DNA of 33,878 bases from Chloroflexota bacterium (GTDB lineage Bacteria; Chloroflexota; Dehalococcoidia; Lucifugimonadales; VXLM01). Location: positions 1-33,878 of the forward strand of contig JAPOPA010000305.1 of NCBI GenBank assembly GCA_026713145.1, read 5' to 3'. A program made the position numbers and the translations under genes. Shown here piece after piece: positions 16,277 through 32,110 of the stretch (position 1 is its first letter; each line of letters opens with the position of its first letter). The notes below the pieces were generated by a model. That model saw only the letters and a program-made list of their open reading frames with translations, was not told the DNA's origin and did no database searches.

Positions 16277-17654
16277 CGGTGCACATAACGGGCACGGCGC
16301 GCTGATGACGCCTAAAGCCGTTGAGGACGACCTCCTCGACAAGGGCAGGCTGCGCGGCTCGACGTTCCGCATAGCGGTGATAGTCTTCGCCGTCCTGTCG
16401 GTTCTGGGGGTCGTCGGGTTCGTGATCCGCCTGGCCGACGGGTTCGGCAACACTCCCGTTTGGGGATACCACGCAGCCCTGTTCGCGTTCATCCTGACGG
16501 CGGCGCAGGGCGCTCCGATGGTGGCCATCGCCCCAAGGATTGCCAACGCCCACTGGCGGCGCTCGATATCCCGCGTCGCCGAACTCTTCAGCCTCGTGGG
16601 TATCGTGAGCTTCGTCATCTACATCCCCGTCGCGTGGGCCCTGCCCAGCATGGAGGACGGCAGGCGAACATTGTGGTTCTACGGTGAGCTCAATATGCCC
16701 GCACACATGCCGGAGATCACGACGACGCTCGTCCTCCTGGCGCTTACGGTCAACGGCCTCTGGCTATTGTGGGTGTCGGCGATGCCCGACTTCGCCATGC
16801 TGCGCGACCGATCGACCGGGAAGAAAAAGGTCTGGTTCAGCCGTCTTGCCCGAGGCTGGGTCGGAACGTCCGGGCAGTGGAACTGGCAAAAGCATCGGCT
16901 GGGCATCCTGGGGGCGTTCTACTTTATGATGCTGGTGACGGCCCACTTCGCATTCAGCTTGGACTTTGGCATGTCGCTGGTGCCCGGCTGGATAGACGCC
17001 CTGTACCCGGCCACACACGCCCACAACTCGCTGCAGGCCGGGGTGGCGATCACGCTAATCACGATGTACGTCTTGTACCGCTTCGGCGGCTACAAGGACT
17101 ACATCAATCTCGACCAATTCTGGGGCTTGGGCAAACTCCTGTTTTCCTTGTCGCTCCTGTGGTTTTGGTTTTGGTTCTCCAGCTTCATCATTTTCTGGTT
17201 CGGCGCGAAGCCTTCCGAGGAGGCGGTGCTCGACCTGCTCTTCGTAGGGCCGTATTTGCCAATATTCTTCATTGTATTCACGTTCGCGTTTCTCGTCCCA
17301 CTGTGGGCGATGATCTGGAACCCGCTGCGGAAGAGTGTGTGGGGGCCCGTCACTATCGCTTGTGGCGTGTTGATCGCGACGTTATTTGACCGAATCCGCG
17401 TCTATGTCGCGGCATTCTCTGTCTCGGAATCGACGAACAAGCACCTGATGGTTGAGATACCCGGCGCCGTGCTGCCCGACGTAGCGGACGTGCTCATATG
17501 GGTGGGCGGCATCTCCGCCTGTATCCTCATCTACATGCTGGGGACGAGGATCATCCCGCCGATAAACATCTGGGAACAGAAGGAAGTATTGCTGTACCGC
17601 ATCCACAAGCCGTTCCACCGGACCGAAGTGCAGGTGCTGGGCAAGCCGGAGTAG
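16269..17654 (+). CDS. actC: ACIII NrfD/PsrC-like integral membrane subunit C
   Basis: Multi-TM polysulfide reductase NrfD-like protein. The ATG at 16269 overlaps the previous stop and is more plausible than the listed 16239 start. Confidence 0.88.
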   Translation: MNNGAHNGHGALMTPKAVEDDLLDKGRLRGSTFRIAVIVFAVLSVLGVVGFVIRLADGFGNTPVWGYHAALFAFILTAAQGAPMVAIAPRIANAHWRRSISRVAELFSLVGIVSFVIYIPVAWALPSMEDGRRTLWFYGELNMPAHMPEITTTLVLLALTVNGLWLLWVSAMPDFAMLRDRSTGKKKVWFSRLARGWVGTSGQWNWQKHRLGILGAFYFMMLVTAHFAFSLDFGMSLVPGWIDALYPATHAHNSLQAGVAITLITMYVLYRFGGYKDYINLDQFWGLGKLLFSLSLLWFWFWFSSFIIFWFGAKPSEEAVLDLLFVGPYLPIFFIVFTFAFLVPLWAMIWNPLRKSVWGPVTIACGVLIATLFDRIRVYVAAFSVSESTNKHLMVEIPGAVLPDVADVLIWVGGISACILIYMLGTRIIPPINIWEQKEVLLYRIHKPFHRTEVQVLGKPE

Positions 17655-17673
17655 CTCGGCAGAACACAGAGCC

Positions 17674-19050
17674 ATGCAAGAACACGTTCAGCTAACACAG
17701 AAACAGATCAACGACGACCTCCTAAGCTCGGTGCTACACACGCCGAGGTGGTGGTGGCCGGCCGTGATCGTCACGGGAATAATCTTCCTGACCGGCATGG
17801 GCGCCTTCGGCTACATGCTCAACCAGGGAGTCGGAGTGACCGGCCTCAACCGCCCCGTGTTCTGGGGCGCTTATATGGTCAACTTCGTGTTCTTCATCGG
17901 CATCAGCCACGCTGGGATCATGATCTCGGCCATCCTGCGGCTCACCCAGGCGGAGTGGCGGCGTCCCGTTACTCGCGCTGCCGAGGTGCTGACGGTCTTC
18001 TCGCTCATGTCCGCGCTGATGGCCGCGCCGCTGGTGCACGTCGGCCGTCCCTGGCGTGCCGATCTGTGGGTATTCCCTTACGACTTCGCGCGCGGCATCT
18101 GGATCAACATCAGGTCCCCGTTCATCTGGGACCCAAGCGCCGTGATGACCTACCTGACGGCGAGTTCGCTGTTCGTCTTCATCGCGCTGATCCCCGACCT
18201 GGCTGTTATACGAGATAGGGCCAGTGGGTATACACGGAAGTTCTACGCGTTGATGGCAATGGGCTGGAGGGGCACGCCACGCCAGTGGAAGCTCCAGGCA
18301 ATCGCCGGAATTCTGCTGTCGGCCTTGGTATTGCCGGTCTTCGTCTCGGTCCACAGCATCGTGTCGTGGGACTTCGCGGTGCAGATCGCGCCGGAAGCGT
18401 GGCACTCGACCATTTTCGCTCCCTATTTCATCATCGGCGCGATCCACTCCGGCGTCTCCGCGGTGGCAACCCTCATGGTCATCATGGTCTGGGTATGGGG
18501 ATGGGACAAGTACCTCAAACCTGATCACCTCGACGCCATCGGGAGGCTGCTCATCATCGTGGCGACGACGTGGTTCTTCTTCTTCTTCCTGGAGTGGGTC
18601 TTCGCGCTCTATACGCTGGAGGACGCCGAGCTTGCGATGCGCGACCTCCAAGTGTTCCAGTGGCCGTGGAGCGGGCTGTTCATCCTGTTCCTCGTAACGG
18701 CCTACTTCATTCCGGTGCCCATGTGGCTGTTCAAGAGCATCCGGCGAAGCTATTTCTGGATGTTCGTTACAACGATCCTGGTCAACATCGGGATGTGGCT
18801 CGAACGCTTCCTCATCATCGTGCCGGGCACGATGAGGCGCGGCGAGTTCATCTTCGACTGGGGCAGCTACCATCCGAGCATCATAGAGATTTTGATGGTG
18901 ATAATGACGTTCGCCTGGGTCGTCCTGGGTATGTTGGTATTCACGAAGCTGTTCCCGCTCATCCCGCTCTTCGACATCAAGGAGGGGATGGTGGGACGCG
19001 ATGAGATACGAATCGGCAGGCGGATAGTACCCGCCTCGATAAGAGAGTAA
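17674..19050 (+). CDS. actF: ACIII second NrfD/PsrC-like integral membrane subunit
   Basis: RPVFWGAYMVNFVFFIGISHAGIMISAILRLTQAEWRRPVTRAAEVLTVFSL...SPFIWDPSAVMTYLTASSLFVFIALIPDLAVIRDR, NrfD-family pattern. Confidence 0.88.
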   Translation: MQEHVQLTQKQINDDLLSSVLHTPRWWWPAVIVTGIIFLTGMGAFGYMLNQGVGVTGLNRPVFWGAYMVNFVFFIGISHAGIMISAILRLTQAEWRRPVTRAAEVLTVFSLMSALMAAPLVHVGRPWRADLWVFPYDFARGIWINIRSPFIWDPSAVMTYLTASSLFVFIALIPDLAVIRDRASGYTRKFYALMAMGWRGTPRQWKLQAIAGILLSALVLPVFVSVHSIVSWDFAVQIAPEAWHSTIFAPYFIIGAIHSGVSAVATLMVIMVWVWGWDKYLKPDHLDAIGRLLIIVATTWFFFFFLEWVFALYTLEDAELAMRDLQVFQWPWSGLFILFLVTAYFIPVPMWLFKSIRRSYFWMFVTTILVNIGMWLERFLIIVPGTMRRGEFIFDWGSYHPSIIEILMVIMTFAWVVLGMLVFTKLFPLIPLFDIKEGMVGRDEIRIGRRIVPASIRE

Positions 19051-19064
19051 CGCGAGGTGATGCT

Positions 19065-19589
19065 GTGGCACTGCGAAGCGTCATAGGTCTGTACACGGAT
19101 GAGGACACGGCGGCGAACGCGCTCGACGCGGTAGCGGGCGCTGGCTACGGTCAGGGCGAGTACGAGATACTCACGGGAACGCCATACCCCGAGGGCACGT
19201 TCGGCGAAGAGGAGCCGGTGCACAAGCTCTACAGGTTCCCGCTGATCGGCGCGGCCTGCGGGTTCACGGTCGGCCTGCTGCTCACCACCGCCACCCAGCT
19301 TGCCTACCCGCTGGTCGTCGGCGGCAAGCCGCTGCTGTCGATCCCGCCGATGGCGATCATCATGTACGAAGGGACGATGCTTGGGGCCATTCTCTTCACG
19401 GTCGTTGGGATCATCTTCGAGTCGAGGTTGCCGCGCATGTTCATGGGAGCCTACGACACCCGCATTACCGAGGGCTACATCGGCATCACGATCACGGCGG
19501 ACGAGTCCAAGATGGAACACGCCGAAGAGACGCTTAAGAAAGCCGGGGCCGAGGAAGTCAAGCGGGGCTGGGAGCAGACCGATTTCTAA
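19065..19589 (+). CDS. actD: ACIII subunit D (DUF3341-like)
   Basis: 174 aa; two TM segments embedded in an alpha/beta sequence (VIGLYTDEDTAANALDAVAGAGY...YRFPLIGAACGFTVGLLL). GTG start. Confidence 0.85.
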   Translation: MALRSVIGLYTDEDTAANALDAVAGAGYGQGEYEILTGTPYPEGTFGEEEPVHKLYRFPLIGAACGFTVGLLLTTATQLAYPLVVGGKPLLSIPPMAIIMYEGTMLGAILFTVVGIIFESRLPRMFMGAYDTRITEGYIGITITADESKMEHAEETLKKAGAEEVKRGWEQTDF

Positions 19590-19625
19590 CTATTCTGAAC
19601 GCTGGACGACACGATAGAGCCAAGA

Positions 19626-20255
19626 TTGATGCATCGAAATTCGCGCCATATTGCAGCAGTTGCCCTCGCGGTGATCATGTCACTGTTTGCCATGGGGTGC
19701 TACAACGCCAAGTCGGGCGACACCGAGGTGTACGGCATAGCCAGGTTCAAGCTGCCCGTGGTCCCGGAGACTGGATCGCACAGGGTGATGGTCTTCTCCG
19801 AGATGCACTACCAGCCCAAGTTCGATTCGCAGGAAGTGCCGCGATTGCTTCCCGCGCAGGGCTCCGTTCCCATAACCGGGCGGGAGCCGCAGTACGATTC
19901 CCTCGACGAGTACAGGGAAGCTGCCATGCCCGAGCAAATTGCTCAGGGGTACGATCGGGCACACGCGGCGGAACTGTATAACGTCAACTGTCAGGTCTGT
20001 CACGGTGTGGGACTGGCCGGTGACGGACTCGTCGTGCCCTTCATGACCCGGGGCGTGGTACCGGCGAATCTCAATAGCGACGCAACTCAGAACTCATCCG
20101 ACGGGGAGTTGTTCGCCTTCATTGGCGAGGGAGGCCGTCAAGGGTACGCCCTCATCGAAGCCGGTCAGCCGTCAAACTCCCCGATGCCCGCTTTCAAGTA
20201 CCTGCTGTCCGAAGAAGAGCGCTGGGCACTGGTCAAGTTCCTCCGGGGCGAGTAA
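19626..20255 (+). CDS. actE: Monoheme cytochrome c lipoprotein, ACIII subunit E
   Basis: Lipobox (LFAMGC), the ActE-like motif MHYQPKFDSQEVPRLLPAQGSVPITG, and one CQVCH heme site. Confidence 0.87.
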   Translation: MMHRNSRHIAAVALAVIMSLFAMGCYNAKSGDTEVYGIARFKLPVVPETGSHRVMVFSEMHYQPKFDSQEVPRLLPAQGSVPITGREPQYDSLDEYREAAMPEQIAQGYDRAHAAELYNVNCQVCHGVGLAGDGLVVPFMTRGVVPANLNSDATQNSSDGELFAFIGEGGRQGYALIEAGQPSNSPMPAFKYLLSEEERWALVKFLRGE

Positions 20256-20360
20256 GGCTGCATCAGGCGGTTCCTTCCTACGACGAACATCCTCGCTCCC
20301 GCATTCCTTTTGGCCATTTGTGTCATTACCCTGAAAATGCCCCCCAGTCCAATCTCCCGT

Positions 20361-20384
20361 AGGGGCGATTCGCGAATCGCCCCT
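20361..20384. repeat. 24-bp perfect palindrome AGGGGCGATTCGCGAATCGCCCCT, repeat-like
   Basis: The sequence equals its own reverse complement, is intergenic, and sits in non-coding flanks. Confidence 0.8.
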
Positions 20385-20648
20385 GCCGCCACCTTCATGA
20401 CTGGTGGTGGCGGTGGCAACCGACATGAGCGATTCCATGCGTAGCGAGAAATGTAAACTGCTCTTCCGTCATCCTTGGGGCCCATTTGCCTACGAAGCTC
20501 CGCGTCGCTGCGTTCGGAATGACAGATTCTAAAGTTGGGTATAGACCTCCGAACGTCCGCATGAGATACGCCGTTCTGCTATCTTGTAGGCATCCCGTTC
20601 GTTTTCTCAATTAGGGCCTCCTTAAACTCCCGCCCCCAGCGAGTAGCC

Positions 20649-22274
20649 ATGCACATCCCATTCCTATCACGAACCATCTGGGCTGCCTCAACCGCGGCAA
20701 TACTGATCTTCGCGGTCGCCTGCGGTTCGAGCCCTGAGCCTCCGTCGCTTCCGACCGAGGAGGAACTCTCACCCCCGCCTCCCGCTCAGCCCGCCCCCCA
20801 GCAGCCGGTGAATACGCCCACGCCCCGCCCGACTCTCTCCGAGTCGAGCGAAGAGGAACCGACCGTCGTCCCCACAGCTGTGAGCATCAGGGGTTATGAT
20901 TCGGTGCTTCCCATGTCCAAGATATTCCAGGGGATCAGCAGCACCGTGTTCAATGAGTTCTCCCCAAACCCAGCCTTGGCCATCGATGGCATGGAAACGG
21001 CCCGCAATCATGGCGATAAGTCGATGGTCCCCGTCATCGTCTCGCTGATGAGGTTCATCAACAGGCAGGAGGTGTTCGAGAAGGCGGTCCTCACGCTCAA
21101 CGAGCTTACCGGGGAGGACTTCGGAGATACCCCCGCCGCCTGGCCACTGTGGTTCGAGTGGGTTGGCGCGAATCTAGACGACTATCCACCGCCGGACGGA
21201 TACCCTCAACTCAAGCGCCGATTCCTTGCGAGCATCCATCCGGGGTTCGAGCAGTTCCTGCTGGGCTACGAGGACACCTCGCGGATCGAGCCTTTCGAGA
21301 TCGAGTGGGGCGGCGTCGCCCCCGACGGCATACCGCCGTTGGAGTTTCCTCCCAACATCCCTGCGGAAGATGCCGACTACCTCGAGAGCCACGAGCGCGT
21401 CTTCGGAGTGTCGATCAACGGAGAGCACCGGGCATACCCCCTCCGCATCATGAACCCGCACGAGATGGCGAACGACGTGCTAGGCGGCGAGCCGATCTCG
21501 CTTGCCTACTGCACGCTCTGCGGCGCGGGCATCGCGTACAGCGGCAAGTTCGACGGTATCGAGACGACCTTCGGAACGTCCGGCTTCCTGTACCGCAGCA
21601 ACAAGATCATGTATGACCGTGAGACTCTCTCCCTCTGGAACCAGGAGTTGGGACAGCCGGTCATCGGCACCCTTGCCGACAGTGGCATCCAACTGGACTT
21701 CTTCCCCACTCTGCTGACCACGTGGGGCGAGTGGAAAGGCGCGCACCCCGACACGACAGTGCTTTCCCTGGATACCGGTGTGTACCAGCCGGGGCGTTAC
21801 TTCCCGGAGGACAACCCCAACGCCACGTACTACGAATACTTCCATACTCCCGGAACGATGTTCCCCGTCTGGATACGGGATGACAGGCTGGAGGATAAGG
21901 ACGTAGTGCTCGGCGTCAATGTCGGCGATGCTCAAAAGGCGTATCCCGTCCATGTGCTTCAAGTGGAGCGGGTCGTTAACGACACGTTGGGGGAGACCAA
22001 CGTCGTCGTCCTGGCTTCCGAGATATCGCAGGCCGCTATAGCCTACGAGCGCGGCGACAACGAGTTCGCCCGTCTGGAGGACGACACGTCAACTGGCGTG
22101 GCGATGAAGCTTGTCGACCAGAGCGGCCACGTGTGGAACGTCACCGAAGAGGCGCTGGTGAACGCCGCCGACTCCTCAGAAACCCTGCCGCGAATTCCCA
22201 CCCACTCGTCGTTCTGGTTCGGCTGGTTCGCCTTCTACCCGGACACCGAGCTCTACGAGGGTGGTGGGGGATAG
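20649..22274 (+). CDS. DUF3179 domain lipoprotein
   Basis: Lipobox (FAVACG). DUF3179 pattern: VFGVSINGEHRAYPLRIMNPHEMANDVLGGEPISLAYCTLCGAGIAYSGKFDG...FGTSGFLYRSNKIMYDRETLSLWNQ. Confidence 0.88.
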   Translation: MHIPFLSRTIWAASTAAILIFAVACGSSPEPPSLPTEEELSPPPPAQPAPQQPVNTPTPRPTLSESSEEEPTVVPTAVSIRGYDSVLPMSKIFQGISSTVFNEFSPNPALAIDGMETARNHGDKSMVPVIVSLMRFINRQEVFEKAVLTLNELTGEDFGDTPAAWPLWFEWVGANLDDYPPPDGYPQLKRRFLASIHPGFEQFLLGYEDTSRIEPFEIEWGGVAPDGIPPLEFPPNIPAEDADYLESHERVFGVSINGEHRAYPLRIMNPHEMANDVLGGEPISLAYCTLCGAGIAYSGKFDGIETTFGTSGFLYRSNKIMYDRETLSLWNQELGQPVIGTLADSGIQLDFFPTLLTTWGEWKGAHPDTTVLSLDTGVYQPGRYFPEDNPNATYYEYFHTPGTMFPVWIRDDRLEDKDVVLGVNVGDAQKAYPVHVLQVERVVNDTLGETNVVVLASEISQAAIAYERGDNEFARLEDDTSTGVAMKLVDQSGHVWNVTEEALVNAADSSETLPRIPTHSSFWFGWFAFYPDTELYEGGGG

Positions 22275-22331
22275 AGAAGCTGTCCATAACCTCTCGATAC
22301 GGCCCTGCATGAGGGTTACAGGTATATAAGC

Positions 22332-23336
22332 ATGAGGGAACGACAGGGCCGTCGCGAGGGGAGTGAGGAAGGCGCAAGTCCGCCACCGCCGGACCGAGGC
22401 GTCAGGCTTGACTGGGCGGACATGCCCGTGCGCGTGCGTGGCGAGATCGAACAGTGGCTGGGTGGAGCGGTTGTCCGCGCAGTTACCCAGCCCACCGGAT
22501 TTACGCCCGGGGTTGCCGCGCGGCTGACTGTGGATGACGGTAGCCGCGTTTTCGTCAAGGCTGCCGGCCCAGAGCCCAACCCTGATACGGCCGCCATGCA
22601 CCGACGCGAGGCAAGCATTGTGTCTGCTCTGCCGTGTGACGCGCCTGTTCCACGACTGCTGTGGTCCTACGACGAGGGTGAGGGCGGTTGGATCGCGCTG
22701 GTATTCGAGGATGTGGATGGCCGCCACCCAACGCAACCTTGGCAGACTGACGACCTCCATCGCGTGGGCGCGGCCATGGAGGATCTGAGTACGTTCCTGA
22801 CACCGTCACCATTGCCGGCAGCCACTGTCGGAACGGCAGGCTACAATTTCGCATCGAGAGGCTGGCGCCAACTTTGCGACGAACGGCCGTCACGGCTCGA
22901 CCATGTGGATGAGTGGTCGCGCCGTCATTTGCAGACGTTAATTGCGATCGAGGAAACTGTCGACGACGCGCTGGAGGGCAACACCCTGCTGAACAACGAC
23001 ATCCGGGCGGACAACATCCTACTCACGTCGAATCACACATGGTTCGTGGACTGGCCTCATGCAAGCGTAGGCCCGCCTTGGCTCGACGTTGTCGCGTTTG
23101 CTCCCAGCGTGACGATGCAGGGTGGCCCGCCCCCTGAGGAAGTGGTCTCCGCGCACTCCTCATCACACTCCGCCGAAAGCGACGCCATCACAGCGGCCGT
23201 GGTGACGCTGGCCGGTTTCTTCACGCACCGAGCCGCGCAGCCTCCACCGCCCGGCCTGCCCACGGTACGCGCATTCCAGGATGCTCAGGGCGTCGTCGCA
23301 CGGAATTGGGTCGCCCAACGCACGGGACTGTCTTGA
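22332..23336 (+). CDS. APH/choline kinase-family phosphotransferase
   Basis: VFVKAAG...REASIVSALPCDAPVPRLLWSYDEGEGGWIALVFEDVDG; catalytic-loop-like NTLLNNDIRADNILLT; WFVDWPHASVGPPWLDVVAF. Confidence 0.87.
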   Translation: MRERQGRREGSEEGASPPPPDRGVRLDWADMPVRVRGEIEQWLGGAVVRAVTQPTGFTPGVAARLTVDDGSRVFVKAAGPEPNPDTAAMHRREASIVSALPCDAPVPRLLWSYDEGEGGWIALVFEDVDGRHPTQPWQTDDLHRVGAAMEDLSTFLTPSPLPAATVGTAGYNFASRGWRQLCDERPSRLDHVDEWSRRHLQTLIAIEETVDDALEGNTLLNNDIRADNILLTSNHTWFVDWPHASVGPPWLDVVAFAPSVTMQGGPPPEEVVSAHSSSHSAESDAITAAVVTLAGFFTHRAAQPPPPGLPTVRAFQDAQGVVARNWVAQRTGLS

Positions 23337-23454
23337 GGGTGCGGGGAGGTGCAAGTCAACAAGATTGCGACCGAAACTGTGCAGCCGGACAGAATGGAAG
23401 CGTTGCTATATTTTTCAGCCGTGTAGAAAGCGACAAAACTTCGACAGTGTCCCC

Positions 23455-23766
23455 TCAGCCTCTCAACATCAATGCTTCGTTGGAGGACGCAACCGTGAGC
23501 CGGATTCCCAGTGTGTCTAAGACCTTCATCACGGTGCCGATTCGTGGGTTACGCTCACCGGACAGAGCCTTATAGAGGCTCTCACGGCCAAGCTGAGCTT
23601 CCTCAGCAACTGACGTCATGCCTTTGGCTCTTGCGACGTTGCCGACGGCTTTCATAAAGAACGCAGGATCGGTTTCTTCCAGCGCCACCTGCAAATACTC
23701 AATGATCGTCTCGTCATTAGTGAGAAACTCAGCGCTGTCCCACGGAGCGAAAGTTTCTTTGCTCAT
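23455..23766 (-). CDS. Antitoxin of a type II TA module (HigA-like addiction module antidote)
   Basis: 103 aa; ETDPAFFMKAVGNVARAKGMTSVAEEAQLGRESLYKALSGERNPRIGTVMKVLDTLGIRLTV, an HTH domain typical of this antidote family. Confidence 0.9.
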   Translation of the reverse strand: MSKETFAPWDSAEFLTNDETIIEYLQVALEETDPAFFMKAVGNVARAKGMTSVAEEAQLGRESLYKALSGERNPRIGTVMKVLDTLGIRLTVASSNEALMLRG

Positions 23767-23775
23767 GTCATCTCC

Positions 23776-24069
23776 TCAGAGTTCGGTTGCTATCTGTCGG
23801 GCACGTCTTATGTCCAGTTGCTGACTCGATTTGTCACCGCCACATAGCAGGACGATCACGACCTTGCGACGGATAGTGTAATAGACTCGATAGCCCTTGC
23901 CGACATCGATTCGGAGTTCACTGATACCACCGCCGACTGACCTGTGGTCTCCAAGATTTCCCTCCTCGATCCGGTCAATGCGAGCAATGACTCGCGCCTG
24001 GGTTCGTCTGTCCCGTAATCGTTCAAGCCAGCGGGAGAAAGTTTCACTTCTTACAACCTCGTACAGCAC
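23776..24069 (-). CDS. RelE/ParE-superfamily toxin (HigB-like addiction module killer)
   Basis: LYEVVRSETFSRWLERLRDRRTQARVIARIDRIEEGNLGDHRSVGGGISELRIDVGKGYRVYYTIRRKVVIVLLCGGDKSSQQLDIRRARQIATEL. The GTG at 24069 is preferred because the TTG at 24105 and ATG at 24078 coincide with promoter hexamers. Start uncertain. Confidence 0.88.
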   Translation of the reverse strand: MLYEVVRSETFSRWLERLRDRRTQARVIARIDRIEEGNLGDHRSVGGGISELRIDVGKGYRVYYTIRRKVVIVLLCGGDKSSQQLDIRRARQIATEL

Positions 24070-24076
24070 AGCCTGC

Positions 24077-24105
24077 ATTGTATCCAATTGAATACGGAGC
24101 GTCAA
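24077..24105 (-). promoter_or_regulatory. Sigma70-type promoter of the TA operon
   Basis: The minus strand reads TTGACG (24105-24100), 17 nt, TACAAT (24082-24077). Confidence 0.7.
24080..24095. promoter_or_regulatory. Palindromic operator candidate in the TA promoter spacer
   Basis: GTATCCAATTGAATAC is a 16-bp palindrome with one mismatched pair. A second CCAATTGG-centred palindrome lies at 24214-24225. Confidence 0.55.
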
Positions 24106-24267
24106 TCGACAAAAATAATCGTCACTCTCGCACGGATCCCGACGCGCTCGAGAAAAACGGTATGGACATCCTTTTACCGTCTAGGGTTGCTGCCCAGACA
24201 GGCGAGAGCGGTTGACCAATTGGTCTTGGTGACCCAGACCGCCCTAACTGGAGAAGGCCAAACGCCC

Positions 24268-25824
24268 TCAATCCCCATACGCGACATGAATGTCGACCGT
24301 ATTCACGATCAGCGGCACGCCGATGCGTGAGTCTCGGTTGACGAGGACGACCTTGACCGCGTGACTGCCCTTCGCTGCCTGAGCGGGCGTAAGATCCCAA
24401 ACGAGCCACTTGTTTTCCGAGACATCGGCCGGGTCTCCGCCGAGCGTTGCCGCATCCTGGATGTCAGGCTCGCCGAGCACGGCCCCGTCAAGGCTCACCT
24501 CCACCTTGTCGTCGGGACCCCAGTGCTCAAACTCGACCATGAGTCGAATCGTGTCTATGTCGTCGGAATGCGCCTCAACGTCGTCGTATACGGATACGTC
24601 GATGGTCGGGCCGTCCCGTGTGATCGACCTGAACAGGACGACGGCCGTCTGCCCGTAGATTCGGTCGTTGACGGCGTTGGTTTCTATGCCTTCAAGATAG
24701 GTCGGCCCCCTGTGCAGGGCGGTGTAGAGCTTGTTCCTGCCCTGGAGCGTGTCGGGCGAGCCGAGAGTCGTCAGCAGGCCGCGCCACGGCTCCTTGCCGG
24801 GGAACCAGTTGAACGTGTACATACCGTCCGCGCCCTGATCGTAGTACCCGGTCGCCGCGGCCCGAAGCCAGGCGTCGCGCCATTCGTCGTTTGACACCAG
24901 GCGCTCGGAATGCTGGCGGGATATGCTGTCGAACCCCCCATAGAGCCGGACGTTCGTTCCCTGCGTGAGCGCCTTGAACTCGCCGACCTCGAATCCCGGA
25001 TCGGTGCCTGAACCACCCGCCCCGATGATGATGTCCGCGAGGTCCTCCTCGACCCAGCGCTCCACGTCGTAGCCGATGTTCCGGCACGATTCGAGCGTCG
25101 TCGCCACGCGCGAGGCCACGTAGAACGGCCGCCCCCGCCTTTCGGCAATTTCGTCGGCCATCCGGCGAACGGCTCGCTGCAGGTCGGTCAGGGCATATCG
25201 CAGGCGGTACCCGTAGTTCTCCGGCACGTGGAACGGGTGCCTCTGCCAGTCCAATTCCACACCGTCCCAGTCGGCCTGCAGGCACGCCTCACGAATGTAC
25301 GACAGCTTATGCTCTTTCGCTTCGGGTATGGCCATGTTCCATGATCCGATGCCCCGCTGCTCCGGCACGTCGTCCACGTCCAGCAGCCATTCAGGATGGT
25401 CCTGCCTGAACTTCGTGCCGCGGTTCAGCCGCTTGAAGTCCTCCGGCCTCGTGCCGTAGAAGTGGTTGTCATTCATCCGCATGGAGACGTAGACGTCCAT
25501 CTCCCGTTCGTGCCCACGGTCGACCATCGCCTGAAAGGGGTTCTCGCCCCGCTCGAACATGCTCCGTATGTTCTCGGAGTGACGCATCGCCCGCATCGAC
25601 GAGTACACGCGCCCCTCACTTTCGCCGAGCCGCTCGTGGACCTCCGACGGCCACTCTGCCTCGTGGGAGCCGATGCTCCAGAACATGGCGTCGACCTGTG
25701 TACCCTCCAAAGGCCCGTATACCTGCTCCATGAGCCGGTCGGTCGACTGCGGGTGCTCGTCGTAGTCCAGCGGTGCGCCGTCCCAGTTGAAGATAATCCG
25801 GTAGTGCGGGGTTGCCTGCCTCAT
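24268..25824 (-). CDS. Glycoside-hydrolase-like TIM-barrel protein (putative GH10-like/uncharacterised)
   Basis: MRQATPHYRIIFNWDGAPLDYDEHPQSTDRLMEQVYGPLEGTQVDAMFWSIGSHE...WDGVELDWQRHPFHVPENYGYRLRYALTDLQRAVRRMADEIAERRGRPFYVASRV. Start reassigned to the ATG at 25824, which overlaps the upstream stop (ATGA). The longer listed ORF is out-of-frame over the neighbouring gene. Confidence 0.7.
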   Translation of the reverse strand: MRQATPHYRIIFNWDGAPLDYDEHPQSTDRLMEQVYGPLEGTQVDAMFWSIGSHEAEWPSEVHERLGESEGRVYSSMRAMRHSENIRSMFERGENPFQAMVDRGHEREMDVYVSMRMNDNHFYGTRPEDFKRLNRGTKFRQDHPEWLLDVDDVPEQRGIGSWNMAIPEAKEHKLSYIREACLQADWDGVELDWQRHPFHVPENYGYRLRYALTDLQRAVRRMADEIAERRGRPFYVASRVATTLESCRNIGYDVERWVEEDLADIIIGAGGSGTDPGFEVGEFKALTQGTNVRLYGGFDSISRQHSERLVSNDEWRDAWLRAAATGYYDQGADGMYTFNWFPGKEPWRGLLTTLGSPDTLQGRNKLYTALHRGPTYLEGIETNAVNDRIYGQTAVVLFRSITRDGPTIDVSVYDDVEAHSDDIDTIRLMVEFEHWGPDDKVEVSLDGAVLGEPDIQDAATLGGDPADVSENKWLVWDLTPAQAAKGSHAVKVVLVNRDSRIGVPLIVNTVDIHVAYGD

Positions 25825-26996
25825 CCGTCCTCCTTGATGTGTCCACTCATAAGCTCCTCGTACCTCTCCGTGCCGAAGACCTCTCTGCGGTTGATCCAGC
25901 GGTACGGCAGCGGCTCGACGCGGAGGCTGCGGTCTTCGAGAGGGAGCTTCACAGGGGCGTGACCACGCCGGTGAGACTCCCGGAGCGCAACTATGATTTC
26001 GAGCACCTTCGCCATGTTCTGCCCGCTGCACCTCGGAGGCACGCCAAGCTCGAGGCAATCGACGATGGCCTGGATGCTCTCCCTCATGCGGTTGCCGGGG
26101 TAGCGCCAGCCCCGCTCGTCGTACGGCATCTCGTTCAGCCCGGCCTCGGGAATTGCGTCCGTGACTTCCACGAGGTCGTCGATCTGGGGCGTCTCGCCCT
26201 TCATGTCCGTGCGCTTCCAGAGACGGAACTTGTTGAAGTCGCTGAACATCACGCCCTTCTCGGTAACGATCTCGATGCCGCGCATCGACTCCGCCCTCAT
26301 ATTGATGAAGCACTCGACGCCGTTCTCGAACCGGATGTAACCGCCCATCGCCTGGTCGACGTCGTCGAACGGGTCGCCGCGAACCCATCCGACCACCCAG
26401 TCCACGTCGGCATCGTCCGCGAACAGCCGGGCAACGCTCAGGTCCTGGCAGTTTGCGCCCCATATCTCGCCGCGACCATCTCCCACGCCGAGATAGATGT
26501 TAATCGACCTGACCGGCCCCAGCTCGCCGGAGTCGGCCATCTCCTTGACTTGCCAGAACTGGGGCAAGTTCCGCATCGCGTCCGCGGCCGCCCAAGAGAC
26601 GCCCCGCGAGTTTATCTCGGCGACCATCCGGTCGGCCTCTTCCAGGCTATCGCAGATCGGCTTCTCGCAGAAGACGGCGGGGATGCCCGCCCGCGCCGCC
26701 GCGATCACGGCATCCGGGTTCGGCCTCGCGGGCAGAATGGGTGCTGCGATATCGAGAGTCTCCAGCGAGAACATCTCCTCGTAGGATGCGTAGGTGGAAG
26801 TGATCCCGAACCGCCGGGAGAACCGTTCGAGGTTCTGAGAGTCTGAGTCCGCGACGGCGACGATCTCCGTACGGGGGTTGAGCATGTACCCGATACCATG
26901 GTTCGTCCCCATGATGCCGGTGCCGATCAGCCCCACGCGGTACGGACGGCCACCGCCGCCTTCCTGGCTCATGTCCGGCATCGTGGATGCTGCCAT
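25821..26996 (-). CDS. Gfo/Idh/MocA family oxidoreductase
   Basis: YRVGLIGTGIMGTNHGIGYMLNPRTEIVAVADSD...AVIAAARAGIPAVFCEKPICDSLEEADRMV. ATG at 26996 preferred; the upstream ORF extension covers the promoter. Confidence 0.93.
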   Translation of the reverse strand: MAASTMPDMSQEGGGGRPYRVGLIGTGIMGTNHGIGYMLNPRTEIVAVADSDSQNLERFSRRFGITSTYASYEEMFSLETLDIAAPILPARPNPDAVIAAARAGIPAVFCEKPICDSLEEADRMVAEINSRGVSWAAADAMRNLPQFWQVKEMADSGELGPVRSINIYLGVGDGRGEIWGANCQDLSVARLFADDADVDWVVGWVRGDPFDDVDQAMGGYIRFENGVECFINMRAESMRGIEIVTEKGVMFSDFNKFRLWKRTDMKGETPQIDDLVEVTDAIPEAGLNEMPYDERGWRYPGNRMRESIQAIVDCLELGVPPRCSGQNMAKVLEIIVALRESHRRGHAPVKLPLEDRSLRVEPLPYRWINRREVFGTERYEELMSGHIKEDG

Positions 26997-27009
26997 CACA
27001 CTCTCCCTG

Positions 27010-27088
27010 TCTCGTGCGACACGGCCATGCCTGCGTTCGACATCGAGCGCCTCGACCTTATAGGCGCGGGGTTCGGCCGTCAAGTGCG
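27010..27088 (-). promoter_or_regulatory. Promoter/leader repeat copy A (upstream of the Gfo/Idh gene)
   Basis: 79-bp element aligned without gaps to 28246-28324. The minus strand contains TTGACG (27083-27078) and TATAAG (27062-27057). Confidence 0.75.
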
Positions 27089-27171
27089 TGAGACGGCGGG
27101 GCGAGGGTCAAGGAGGTGGACTCGACGGCCGGTTTGCCCGCTGTGTCAGGGACCGAAAACGCCGCGCAGGA

Positions 27172-28227
27172 CTACCGGAACGTGAGCACCTCGGCAGGGT
27201 TGGAGACCAGGATGTCGTGGACTGCCTCGGGAGTGAAGCCCCTGTACAGCATCCTGGGAGCTATGTGTTCCAGTATGTACGAGTAGCCGTGGCCGCCGTA
27301 CTTATCCAGACGGTGCTTCGTGCATATGTCCTGCGCCACGACGACTTTTCGGCCGTAGCCTTCGGACGATATCCAGGCGATGCGCTCAAGGCGCTGGTCG
27401 TCGCTCGGCATATCGATGTCCAGGTTCTTGGCGTAGTACGACCCGCCCCAGCCGAACAGGTCCCACTCCATGTAGCAACCCGACTCCGCGATCTGTTTGA
27501 GCGTACCGCGTTCGAAGACCGTCCTGTCGAGGTGGCCCATAATCGTATGCGACAGATCGGCCCCGGCCCGGTCCAGGATATCGATGATCTCAAGTGGCGC
27601 CGTCTCGTCCCTGCCGGGATGTATGAGCAGCGGTGCGCCGGTCATGCGCTGTGCGCGCGCCGATGCCTTCAGCACCTTCCGTTCGTTGTCCGCCAGGGGC
27701 CAGTCGCAGCCGACCTCGCCTATGATGCCGGACCTTATGCCAGTCCCGTCGGCCCCTTCGGTGATGTCCCCCACTATCAGGTCGACCATTTCGTCCTCTG
27801 TCAGGTCGTCCATCCCCGGCGGGTGATGAGTGCCCACATAGTAGGAAGCGCCCATCACGATATTCACACCCGTGGCGTTGGAGACCCTCGCAAGGCCAAT
27901 CGGGTCGCGGCCTATTCCGATGCTCGTCGCCTCGACCAGCGTGCCCCCGCCATACTGCTTGAACAGCCCGACCTCTTCGATGGCCGTCTGGATGTCCTCA
28001 AGCCGTCCATTGTCTCGGTTCTCCTTCAACTGGTACCGTATCTTGCCCAGAATCTCCTGGGAGACCGGCTTCTCATAGAAGGCCTGGTCGCTCACGCTTG
28101 GGAACCACTTCTTGGTCCAGGAGCCGTCGAATAGGATGTGCTCGTGGGTAAACGTCTTGCCAAATTCACCGGGATCGACCGGCCCGAGTACCGTCTGCGC
28201 CCTCCCGGACAGTTCATTACTGGTCAT
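27172..28227 (-). CDS. Phosphotriesterase-family amidohydrolase (lactonase-like)
   Basis: GKTFTHEHILFDG (HxH-type metal motif); GEVGCDWPL; PLLIHPGRD; HTIMGHLDRT; VVVAQDICTKHRLDKYGGHGYSYILEHIAPRML. Confidence 0.92.
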   Translation of the reverse strand: MTSNELSGRAQTVLGPVDPGEFGKTFTHEHILFDGSWTKKWFPSVSDQAFYEKPVSQEILGKIRYQLKENRDNGRLEDIQTAIEEVGLFKQYGGGTLVEATSIGIGRDPIGLARVSNATGVNIVMGASYYVGTHHPPGMDDLTEDEMVDLIVGDITEGADGTGIRSGIIGEVGCDWPLADNERKVLKASARAQRMTGAPLLIHPGRDETAPLEIIDILDRAGADLSHTIMGHLDRTVFERGTLKQIAESGCYMEWDLFGWGGSYYAKNLDIDMPSDDQRLERIAWISSEGYGRKVVVAQDICTKHRLDKYGGHGYSYILEHIAPRMLYRGFTPEAVHDILVSNPAEVLTFR

Positions 28228-28245
28228 GGTAGCCCCCGTAGTCTC

Positions 28246-28324
28246 TCTCGTGCGACACGGCCGCGCATATCGTCGACATTCAGCGCCTCGACCTTATAGA
28301 CGGGGTGTTCGGTCGTCAAGTGCG
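28246..28324 (-). promoter_or_regulatory. Promoter/leader repeat copy B (upstream of the phosphotriesterase-like gene)
   Basis: Same 79-bp element as 27010-27088, about 66/79 identical by hand count. TTGACG at 28319-28314, TATAAG at 28298-28293. Confidence 0.75.
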
Positions 28325-28438
28325 GGCGCTTGGTCGAGTGGGGTGCATAGGGTGTGTGAGGAAGTAATCAGCTCACCAAACCGGACAGAACGAAGAACCA
28401 TCGTGTCGCGACTACTGCTGGACCTGTAGGGCTCCATT

Positions 28439-29206
28439 GTGGCAGGTGTGCTACTCTGCTCTACAGTCTTCCACCTGCAGAATCGGAGCAAGACATTGGA
28501 CACTGTTGTCAACGGCTTGGTATTTGACCTAGACAATACCCTGCTCGACAGACAGACCACTTTCATGAGGGTAGCCGGCAACTTCTACGAAGAGCACCTA
28601 TGTGCCACAACGTCAGTTACACGGGACGACGCTATAAGGAAGATAGTCCAGTGGGACGCTGACGGTTACGCCAACAGGGAAAAGATGTTTGCGCGGTGGC
28701 TTGGCGAGTGGCCTGAGGCTGGCCTCGACATGGGGACGTTGACCAAGTGGTATCGCTCCGCAATGGAGCGACAAGTGCAGCCTAGCATGGAGGTCAACGG
28801 ATTCCTCGCCTATCTGAACGATCGACAGGTACCGTGGGGAATTGTTACCAACGGGTCGAGAAACCAGCATCGCAAGTGTCGGGCGGCGGGCCTGGACCAA
28901 CTCGCCCCATTCATAATAGTTTCCGAAGAGGTCGGCTACGCCAAGCCTGACCCGAGGATATTCAGCGATGCCCTGAAGGCGACCGGACTCACGGGTCCCG
29001 AGCAGATCATGTTCGTCGGAGACAATCCTATAGCCGACATCGATGGAGCCAAGGGCTTCGGAATGAAGGTCGGCTGGATTAGGCGAGGTCGGCAGTATCC
29101 GGTCGATCTCCAACCCCCGGACCACGTCTTCGACTTCGTCACAGAAGTGCGACACATTGTCGACATGACTCCACAATCGCCTTGTGTGGGCAACGAACGG
29201 CGCTAA
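28439..29206 (+). CDS. HAD-superfamily hydrolase
   Basis: LVFDLDNTLLDRQ (motif I), WGIVTNGSRNQHRK (motif II), YAKPDPRIF (motif III), MFVGDNPIADIDGAKGFGMKVGWI (motif IV). Exact start uncertain; an internal TTG near 28495 is possible. Confidence 0.9.
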   Translation: MAGVLLCSTVFHLQNRSKTLDTVVNGLVFDLDNTLLDRQTTFMRVAGNFYEEHLCATTSVTRDDAIRKIVQWDADGYANREKMFARWLGEWPEAGLDMGTLTKWYRSAMERQVQPSMEVNGFLAYLNDRQVPWGIVTNGSRNQHRKCRAAGLDQLAPFIIVSEEVGYAKPDPRIFSDALKATGLTGPEQIMFVGDNPIADIDGAKGFGMKVGWIRRGRQYPVDLQPPDHVFDFVTEVRHIVDMTPQSPCVGNERR

Positions 29207-29250
29207 GGAAAGCTGCGGATTCAAAAAAAGCCTAAAGACAAGGCCCATCC

Positions 29251-30039
29251 ATGAAATATGGCGACCTGACATACGAAGAGATTCGAGACAGGGCCCGCCA
29301 GGACTGGCTGGCCATCATCCCAACGGGATGCACAGAGCAGCAGGGGCCACACCTCCCCGTGGACAACGATACTTGGTTCGTGGAGCGGGTATGCAATGCT
29401 GCTTCCTCAAAGGCTGACGCAGATTACGGCGTTCAATCATTAGTACTCCCGACCATTCCCTTCGGACCCACGCCGGAGCATAGAAACTACGGGGCAGGTT
29501 ACATCGACATCCCAGTCGAGCTTCATGACTCCCTCGTCCTGTCGACCCTGGAGTCGTTGACCGCACAGGGCTTCCGCAAGATAGTTGTGTGGCGCGGCTG
29601 CGGAGGCCACGACCTCCGGGAAACAGTGAAACGGTTCAACGAGACCTACAACGAACAATCCAGGGCATTCCTGCCCGGTCACCCGTACCATGAAGTCTGG
29701 CGCCGAATCGCCGATCTATCGGTACCGGGTGGTCACGCGGACAGCTTCACCACTTCTATCATGCTCCATCTGCGTCCTGAAGCCGTTCGCAAGGACAGAA
29801 TAGTCGATCCCGAACACGAGCCTGTGGACTGGGAGGATCCAGACCTCGACTTTGCAAACTACTCCTCCACTGGAGTTATTGGAGATCCAACGCACGCCAG
29901 TGCAGAACTCGGGGCCAAGCTATGGGACGCTGTGGTCGATGAGGTCGCCGCGACACTGCGTTCAATCGCCAGTTGCCCCGAAACAGTCCCCTCGGTCGAT
30001 GTGGACAAGCTACATTTCCTAAGACGTTCAAAGGCCTGA
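29251..30039 (+). CDS. Creatininase-family protein (creatinine amidohydrolase-like)
   Basis: AIIPTGCTEQQGPHLPVDNDTWFVERV...LPTIPFGPTPEHRNYGAGYIDIP...GHADSFTTSIMLHLRPEAV. Confidence 0.92.
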   Translation: MKYGDLTYEEIRDRARQDWLAIIPTGCTEQQGPHLPVDNDTWFVERVCNAASSKADADYGVQSLVLPTIPFGPTPEHRNYGAGYIDIPVELHDSLVLSTLESLTAQGFRKIVVWRGCGGHDLRETVKRFNETYNEQSRAFLPGHPYHEVWRRIADLSVPGGHADSFTTSIMLHLRPEAVRKDRIVDPEHEPVDWEDPDLDFANYSSTGVIGDPTHASAELGAKLWDAVVDEVAATLRSIASCPETVPSVDVDKLHFLRRSKA

Positions 30040-30166
30040 TCAACTCTCGCAATACCTGCCTGCCAAACGGTTAGGGACGAAGTCACCATTTTGGCTCGAC
30101 TGTCCCCTGGCAGTACCCGGACAGCCTCGCGACAACAACGACGACGTCCACAACCCAAGGGTTGAG

Positions 30167-32110
30167 TCAGGCGCTGCCCTCGACCTGGACCGTGACGATA
30201 TCCACGCCGTGGAACTTCTGGTGGCGCACGGCGGAGGTGTGGTGCCGCAACAGCCGGAGCGAAAGGTCGTCGAAGGTTGGTACGGCGGTTTCGTCGGCCA
30301 GATACGCCAAGAGGTCCTCGACGTTCTCCTTTCGCGTCGTGGCGACGAACTCCAATTCCACCATCGTCCCCTGTGGTCTTGCGTTGATGATCAGGCGGGG
30401 ATGCTCCGAACTGTCAGCATCGTCCTCCCGCGCCTGCAGGCTGGCGAGCGTCTCTTCTCCGGCTGCGCGCAGCCGGAGAGTAGAGGTCTCGTTCCACCCG
30501 AGTCTGGATGAAAGTCCGGTAAGAAACTCATCGATCGCAGGGAGCGAGTCCATGTCCAACGTGACCTCGAGACGCGACCGGCGCAAGCTGACCGCCTCGA
30601 GCAGGAGCGTCATGCCGACCGCAACCACAGCCCCGATCGTGACTCCATTGCCGAGCAGTCCACCAATCTCATCTCCAAAGACGTCCCCAATGATGGAGTG
30701 ATCGTGGAGCCCCAGGCCCAGTGCGCTGGCGAGCGCGACCACCAGTACGCGCTTGGGATCGAGGCCGTCGCGCAGGATCGTCTGCCAGCCGCTCACGAAG
30801 AGCATACCCATGGCGAGCATCAGGTAAGCACCCAAGACCGGACCGGGAATCATCAGCAGAAGGGCGGCAAGTTTTGAGAAGAAGGCCAGCACTACTATGA
30901 CGATTGCCACACCGATGCCGATTCTACGGGCGGCGACGCCAGTGAGGTTGATCAGCGAGAGACTGAATGAGGAATAGGACATCGGCGGAAGTGTGCCTGA
31001 GATGCCCGCAAACAACATGCCAATGCCGTTGACGCTCACCATGCCCTGGATCTGGCGGAAATCTATCGCTCGCGACCGTCGTCTGGATCCCTGCTGGATC
31101 GCAACACCGTCGCTGATGGTCTTGATCCCGATAACGAGAGTGAGGATCGCGAACGAGGGTAAGAGTGCCCAGAATTCCTTGCCGGGCGTTAGATCGAAAC
31201 TCAGAGGCGGAACTTTGGGGATGCCGAACCATCCGGCGTTAATGATGCGGTCCGCGTCGATCAGACCGAATGCGGCGGCGACTGCGCAGCCGGCCAGTAT
31301 GCTGATGAACGGACCCACGAGACGCCAGCGCCCGCTGGCGTACAGGGTAACGATGACCGAGACCAGCAGCGTTGTTCCGGCGACCAACGGACCCGAGACC
31401 GGAGCCGCGCCGTCGGGCAGGTCCTGAACGCTGTCGAAGGCGATGGGCAGCACGCTGACGGCGATCAGCATAGTCACCGTCCCCGTGACGACCGGCGTGA
31501 ATATGCGGCGTAGCGTTGGCAGCCACCAGGCGAGCGCTACTTGGACCACACAGCAGACAACCAGAAGGCTCATGAACGTGGATAGCCCGGCCGCCGAGAT
31601 CGTCGCCACCATGATCGCGATGAACAGCGCTGCAGGACAGGTGAGTACAATATGGCCGGCGCCGAACCGCCACATCTGGAACGCTTGCAGCGCCGTGATC
31701 CCCGCGCTGACCAGCAGTGCCGCGAAGACACTCCACGTCAAATAGGTGTCGTCGAGCCCGGACGAGCGAATCGCGACCGCCACATTCAACACCGTCGGCG
31801 CAAGTATGAGCGCGGCGCCCTGAAATCCAACCACCAGCGTGGTCGACAGAGAACAGGACTCCTCGGGCTCAAACCGTATAGGCTGTTCGGCGCTACCAGC
31901 AGTCAATTGGTTAACCAATCTCCCACTCTTGCAGGCTGACACTCCAATGACCTGACCATACCACACGCAAAACCTGCCCGTTACTCCCTGGGCGGTTTTC
32001 CTGCGACAAATGGTAATCTTCGCCAAGATAGGCACATGTGCCCCTGTCGGCCGCGAGTCCTGCGGAGCGCCAAGGCGGGAGCACCGAGAGCACCGTCTGC
32101 GTCGGCACAC
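30167..32110 (-). CDS. NCS2-family (xanthine/uracil permease-like) transporter with C-terminal degenerate RsbW-like domain
   Basis: NCS2-like multi-TM core (TTLVVGFQGAALILAPTVLNVAVAIR...FAGISGTLPPMSYSSFSLSLINLTGVAARRIG...), then about 150 aa soluble tail ending TFDDLSLRLLRHHTSAVRHQKFHGVDIVTVQVEG. The real start is probably downstream of the listed one, e.g. around 31950. Confidence 0.85.
   Translation of the reverse strand: MCRRRRCSRCSRLGAPQDSRPTGAHVPILAKITICRRKTAQGVTGRFCVWYGQVIGVSACKSGRLVNQLTAGSAEQPIRFEPEESCSLSTTLVVGFQGAALILAPTVLNVAVAIRSSGLDDTYLTWSVFAALLVSAGITALQAFQMWRFGAGHIVLTCPAALFIAIMVATISAAGLSTFMSLLVVCCVVQVALAWWLPTLRRIFTPVVTGTVTMLIAVSVLPIAFDSVQDLPDGAAPVSGPLVAGTTLLVSVIVTLYASGRWRLVGPFISILAGCAVAAAFGLIDADRIINAGWFGIPKVPPLSFDLTPGKEFWALLPSFAILTLVIGIKTISDGVAIQQGSRRRSRAIDFRQIQGMVSVNGIGMLFAGISGTLPPMSYSSFSLSLINLTGVAARRIGIGVAIVIVVLAFFSKLAALLLMIPGPVLGAYLMLAMGMLFVSGWQTILRDGLDPKRVLVVALASALGLGLHDHSIIGDVFGDEIGGLLGNGVTIGAVVAVGMTLLLEAVSLRRSRLEVTLDMDSLPAIDEFLTGLSSRLGWNETSTLRLRAAGEETLASLQAREDDADSSEHPRLIINARPQGTMVELEFVATTRKENVEDLLAYLADETAVPTFDDLSLRLLRHHTSAVRHQKFHGVDIVTVQVEGSA

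Follow-up and report, generated by a model that had tools for sequence, protein, structure and literature searches.

The window, that is, the whole stretch of 33,878 nucleotides analyzed here, comes from a Chloroflexota bacterium and contains two adjacent genes read from the minus strand. One of these (25821..26996) codes for a 391-aa oxidoreductase of the Gfo/Idh/MocA family (Pfam PF01408, E 2.6e-21), whose ATG at 26996 is preceded by GGGAG and whose protein finds 33 matches in its own genome. The other, lying upstream of it (27172..28227), codes for a 351-aa hydrolase of the phosphotriesterase (PTE) family (Pfam PF02126, E 5.4e-80), with an ATG at 28227 preceded by GGGGG; its closest solved structure is 9efa, annotated as ‘Phosphotriesterase-related protein’. 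Each gene is headed by a version of the same minus-strand element: copy A, the promoter and leader of the Gfo/Idh gene, occupies 27010..27088, and copy B, before the PTE-like gene, occupies 28246..28324. Elsewhere, the window contains two perfect 24-nt palindromes of different sequences, at 20361-20384 and 30456-30479 (AGGGGCGATTCGCGAATCGCCCCT and TCTCCGGCTGCGCGCAGCCGGAGA).

The two copies align without gaps and are identical at 66 of 79 positions, as the preliminary description had estimated; its further statements that both lie upstream of minus-strand starts and have in common TTGACG, a 15-nt spacer and an exact 17-mer hold for both copies. In a BLAST comparison of the window with itself, 27007-27088 pairs with 28243-28324 at 82.9% identity over 82 bp (E = 1.4e-17), and the next-best match of either copy within the window, on both strands, reaches 40/79. 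The 15 nt separate a -35-like TTGACG from a -10-like TATAAG in copies A and B alike (in copy A, minus-strand positions 27083-27078 and 27062-27057, respectively). The copies are exactly alike over 18 nt of the -10 and early transcribed region, and they differ at 9 of 36 positions in the leader part and at about 5 of 43 in the core. Their genome, which comprises 3.46 Mb in 398 contigs, was examined by pattern, protein and DNA searches. Pattern scans place the 39-nt core, at up to three mismatches, in exactly two places in it, and the pattern TTGAC..TATAAGNTCGA likewise in two. The hundreds of copies by which a genome scan would betray a dispersed repeat are thus not encountered, and we reject that reading.

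In its hexamers, the TTGACG-15-TATAAG arrangement is close to the housekeeping consensus, with a -10 hexamer ending in G and a spacer of 15 nt against the 16-18 usual in the genus. A strict sigma-70 scan of 26900-28500 returns no promoter and a terminator scan of the same region returns nothing. The arrangement departs from TTGACA/TATAAT-like hexamers set 16-18 nt apart, yet the element is conserved in sister species. In both genomes compared, TTGAC..TATAA pairs cluster at gaps of 17-19 nt, equivalent to 16-18-nt spacers, and exceed a reversed-pattern control (25 versus 13 and 33 versus 15), which makes a promoter of this type plausible in the genus; several of the pairs matched between the species keep both hexamers in both. 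The element can be aligned between the species, whereas the sequence upstream of it cannot, a contrast that fits a function for the element. We infer that the element is probably an active promoter. As a separate observation, TTGACxxACAAGAACATATAA, with an 11-nt gap, occurs several times in both genomes (G000 C119:258-278 and C177:3367-3387; G001 C39, C41, C80 and C110).

The family is represented by four genomes in the collection and the order by the 250 genomes that were searched; all are metagenome assemblies, and the junctions discussed here are known from the assembled contigs. To judge by the sample names, the hosts are probably sponges. The core occurs once each in two sister species, G001 (C19:21449-21481) and G003 (C469:2224-2256), which are about 95% identical to each other; the other 247 genomes of the order that were searched lack it. 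In both sisters, it lies immediately upstream of the Gfo/Idh orthologue at the same locus (87% identical in G001, 86% in G003), with the PTE gene absent from the site. When compared with the core of the sister-species promoter, copy B is identical to it at 41 of 43 positions and copy A at 39 of 43. The window is collinear with G001 C19 from 17551 to 27088 (85-90% identity in BLAST blocks), and the outer edge of copy A marks the limit of this collinearity and also of that with the shorter contig G003 C469. The fourth family genome, G002, has no close orthologue of either Gfo/Idh or PTE, its best matches being at 51-52%. The Gfo/Idh ATG of the window (26996, within 26980-27000) has no counterpart in G001, where the gene apparently starts a few codons further in, behind its own GGAG. 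The interval upstream of the Gfo/Idh promoter (28328-32092) differs among all three sisters: the window’s own interval features the PTE, a HAD hydrolase, a creatininase-family gene and a xanthine/uracil-type permease, G001 has an alpha/beta hydrolase, and G003 has an 80-bp permease remnant (L079 2364-2443). To judge by its gene content, this interval looks like a hotspot of gene exchange.

The PTE gene has orthologues in the same two sisters at a different locus; other relatives come from SAR202 genomes. In G001, the orthologue (89% identical in amino acids, 90% in nucleotides) lies on C123, adjoining pheS, and is preceded by its own leader in an upstream region without the element; this region and that of the window PTE have only the ribosome-binding region in common. 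In G003, a partial gene (C564, 91%) is carried by a short contig, which can be aligned with the same pheS-side island. At the pheS locus, the 5.6-kb island that contains the PTE in G001 has as its counterpart in the window’s own genome a stretch of 324 unrelated bases. A PTE locus in a further genome of the collection, G025, was considered as the source and rejected, its match being confined to the coding region. The G001 island also contains the 3' end of the PTE gene three times, as 141-185-bp copies (L078 5630-5814, 7266-7449 and 8347-8487; also in L080), with MFS transporter and PIN-domain genes between them, and the third copy stops at the island boundary. Beside the island, a short repeat (L078 9441-9641, G001:C123) has dozens of matches across the window’s genome, some of them near-tandem with a spacing of ~173 bp (e.g. 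on contig C275).

Hence, the claim in the preliminary description that the control element itself had been copied is borne out: the core is single in two sisters and double only beside the PTE. The repeat is confined to the one arrangement in which the PTE stands before Gfo/Idh, and the PTE is at different loci in the sister species. The pair is likely to be the footprint of the insertion of a single gene, the PTE, into the promoter region of Gfo/Idh, the element’s resident gene, in the course of which the target promoter was duplicated and captured.

The other course offered earlier was that the element is strongly constrained, and the 17-mer in the leader (GGCCGTGTCGCACGAGA; minus strand, 27010..27026 in copy A and 28246-28262 in copy B) was suggested to be an operator or a site of RNA or translation regulation. 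On such a view, two independent promoters would have been kept alike by a common regulator that binds them. We regard this as very improbable. In its favor, the 17-mer and the 18-nt run of the -10 and early transcribed region are both exact, and when 13 mismatches are placed at random among 79 positions, two identical runs of at least 17 arise just 2.5% of the time. The 17-mer alone is unremarkable, since at least one run of that length is expected in 42% of such placements. The likeness, moreover, extends over 79 ungapped bases, the variable leader included, and the element precedes no other gene in the genome. No third copy of the 17-mer, exact or with one mismatch, occurs in a pattern scan of the 3.46 Mb, and in the leaders of the orthologous Gfo/Idh genes of the sister species the 17-mer stretch has diverged and a 19-nt block is absent. 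Folding of the leaders of copies A and B is no better than that of shuffled sequence (z about 0), and an RNA-structure reading is rejected on that ground. As a mark of a regulon, the core leads to no wider set of sites in the own genome or the 250 genomes of the order; with two places in the own genome, one in each of two sisters and none in other genomes, a regulon operator is rejected as well. Nor is the spacer exceptionally conserved: its 81-88% falls inside the 67-100% range of 12 other TTGAC..TATAA pairs matched by similarity. There is no support for a special 17-mer operator.

The junctions show how the PTE gene sits between the copies. The relocated segment spans approximately 27134..28245 on the minus strand, comprising the ribosome-binding region, the coding region and a 3' tail of ~38 bp, and is 90% identical to the corresponding segment in the pheS-side island of G001. 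Homology to the PTE locus continues for 38 bp beyond the stop codon, to 27134, and is followed by 45 bp (27089..27133, minus strand) that match nothing in the G001, G003 or G025 loci, and then by copy A. On the other side, copy B comprises the promoter and the leader as far as the last base of the 17-mer, where it gives way to the native PTE ribosome-binding region, which reads GAGACTACGGGGGCTACC-ATG in the window and GGACACTATGGAGGCGACC-ATG in G001. BLAST stretches the segment to 28256, inside the 17-mer, via partial similarity. As the 17-mer and the native PTE leader have a short similarity in common, GTCGC-C-A, the junction may fall inside it, a faint hint of microhomology. On its minus strand, the 1.2-kb interval contains no gene-sized reading other than the PTE, and it has neither a transposase nor terminal inverted repeats as signs of an insertion sequence or transposon, the repeats that bound it being direct.

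Capture of the promoter by the inserted PTE has to be set against the possibility that the two-copy arrangement is ancestral and that in the sisters the 80-bp direct repeats recombined with each other, whereby the PTE was lost and one promoter restored. Divergence bears on this. Between the window and G001, the PTE differs at 9.6% of nucleotides and 21% of 4-fold sites, pheS at 9.8% and 29%, and Gfo/Idh at 13.4% and 35%. As the divergence of the PTE is broadly like that of the two other genes, it has the look of a gene that had long been part of the genus and then moved, rather than of a recent import from outside. The 9 differences in 36 positions of the repeat leader lie within the 4-fold-site range (21-35%), and therefore the event would be about as old as the species split, which is as finely as such dating resolves its age. 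An old event suits an ancestral arrangement, for which the direct repeats would have been a ready path of deletion, and a single loss would be enough, given the common ancestry of G001 and G003. However, it requires the PTE to have stood at two ancestral loci and then to have undergone opposite losses, and the leader sequence and 19-nt block common to copies A and B but absent in the sisters are more simply explained by a duplication on the branch of the window. We thus consider an ancestral pair unlikely, and infer that the insertion took place on the window’s lineage rather than that the sisters suffered a loss.

A third account would have a circular or linear donor, already bearing the promoter and the PTE, integrate by homologous recombination at the Gfo/Idh promoter and leave one copy per side. 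Integration of a circle by homology does leave a direct repeat on each side, the flanking repeats of transposed Arabidopsis genes have been ascribed to the insertion of circles (PMC2869330), and the mismatches between copies A and B could be differences between donor and recipient. Against it, no core occurs away from the Gfo/Idh locus in the 250 genomes of the order, the PTE orthologue of G001 has another upstream region, and copy B enters the native PTE ribosome-binding region right after the 17-mer, in the manner of a fresh junction. A donor of this kind is quite unlikely, and the integration of a promoter-bearing circle is less likely than illegitimate recombination, the presumed route.

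For promoter capture by insertion, we propose that a ~1.1-kb PTE segment, complete with the gene’s own ribosome-binding region and a short 3' tail, was joined on immediately downstream of the Gfo/Idh promoter and leader, and that a second copy of this ~80-bp region was left on the far side, where it would still drive Gfo/Idh. The duplication could have arisen by the fill-in of a staggered break, or by a replication fork switching to the PTE as a template and then back upstream of the promoter. Transcription of both genes would then start at copies of a single promoter of the housekeeping type, so that they probably answer to the same signal. As no terminator-like site was found between the genes, PTE transcripts probably also read into Gfo/Idh. 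A broader and quite doubtful extension is that individual catabolic genes change place again and again in this genus of SAR202-type Chloroflexota, by a process that duplicates 80-190 bp of flank each time. If so, a gene would on arrival already be fused to a promoter or gene end resident at the site, and the sister’s island with its threefold PTE 3' end would be another product of the same process.

Parallels to this kind of outcome are known. In the Cit+ variant of E. coli, the rnk promoter was copied before citT when the entire rnk-citG region underwent tandem duplication (PMC5918244). There, as here, a gene gains the promoter of another by local duplication and the original promoter keeps its own gene; in contrast, only ~80 bp is duplicated here and the recipient comes from another locus, whereas in Cit+ it is the neighboring gene. 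The transposed Arabidopsis genes are likewise non-transposon genes at a new site, with direct repeats on either side that are homologous to the target and present once at the orthologous empty site (PMC2869330). The present case differs in being bacterial, in having a promoter and leader as the repeat where theirs is mainly genic, and in that a circular intermediate is the less likely route. In laboratory E. coli and Bacillus, promoters have been captured by illegitimate tandem duplication (PMC11111574). In these selections too, a duplicated promoter joined with little or no homology activates a gene, although activation is only predicted in our case, which is natural and old rather than marker-selected.

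A literature search found no report on this locus, and the case is a tidy example of a known evolutionary process, not a new kind of regulator. Expanded catabolic gene families have been described in SAR202 bacteria (PMC6946804, PMC10444878). What the locus adds is an instance, in an uncultured and gene-rich lineage, of how a single step can bring a catabolic gene under a promoter already in place; the near-empty site can be read in the sequence, as can the junctions and what was probably the gene’s former site. It thereby bears on how these bacteria build new catabolic gene clusters, by a principle that was already known.
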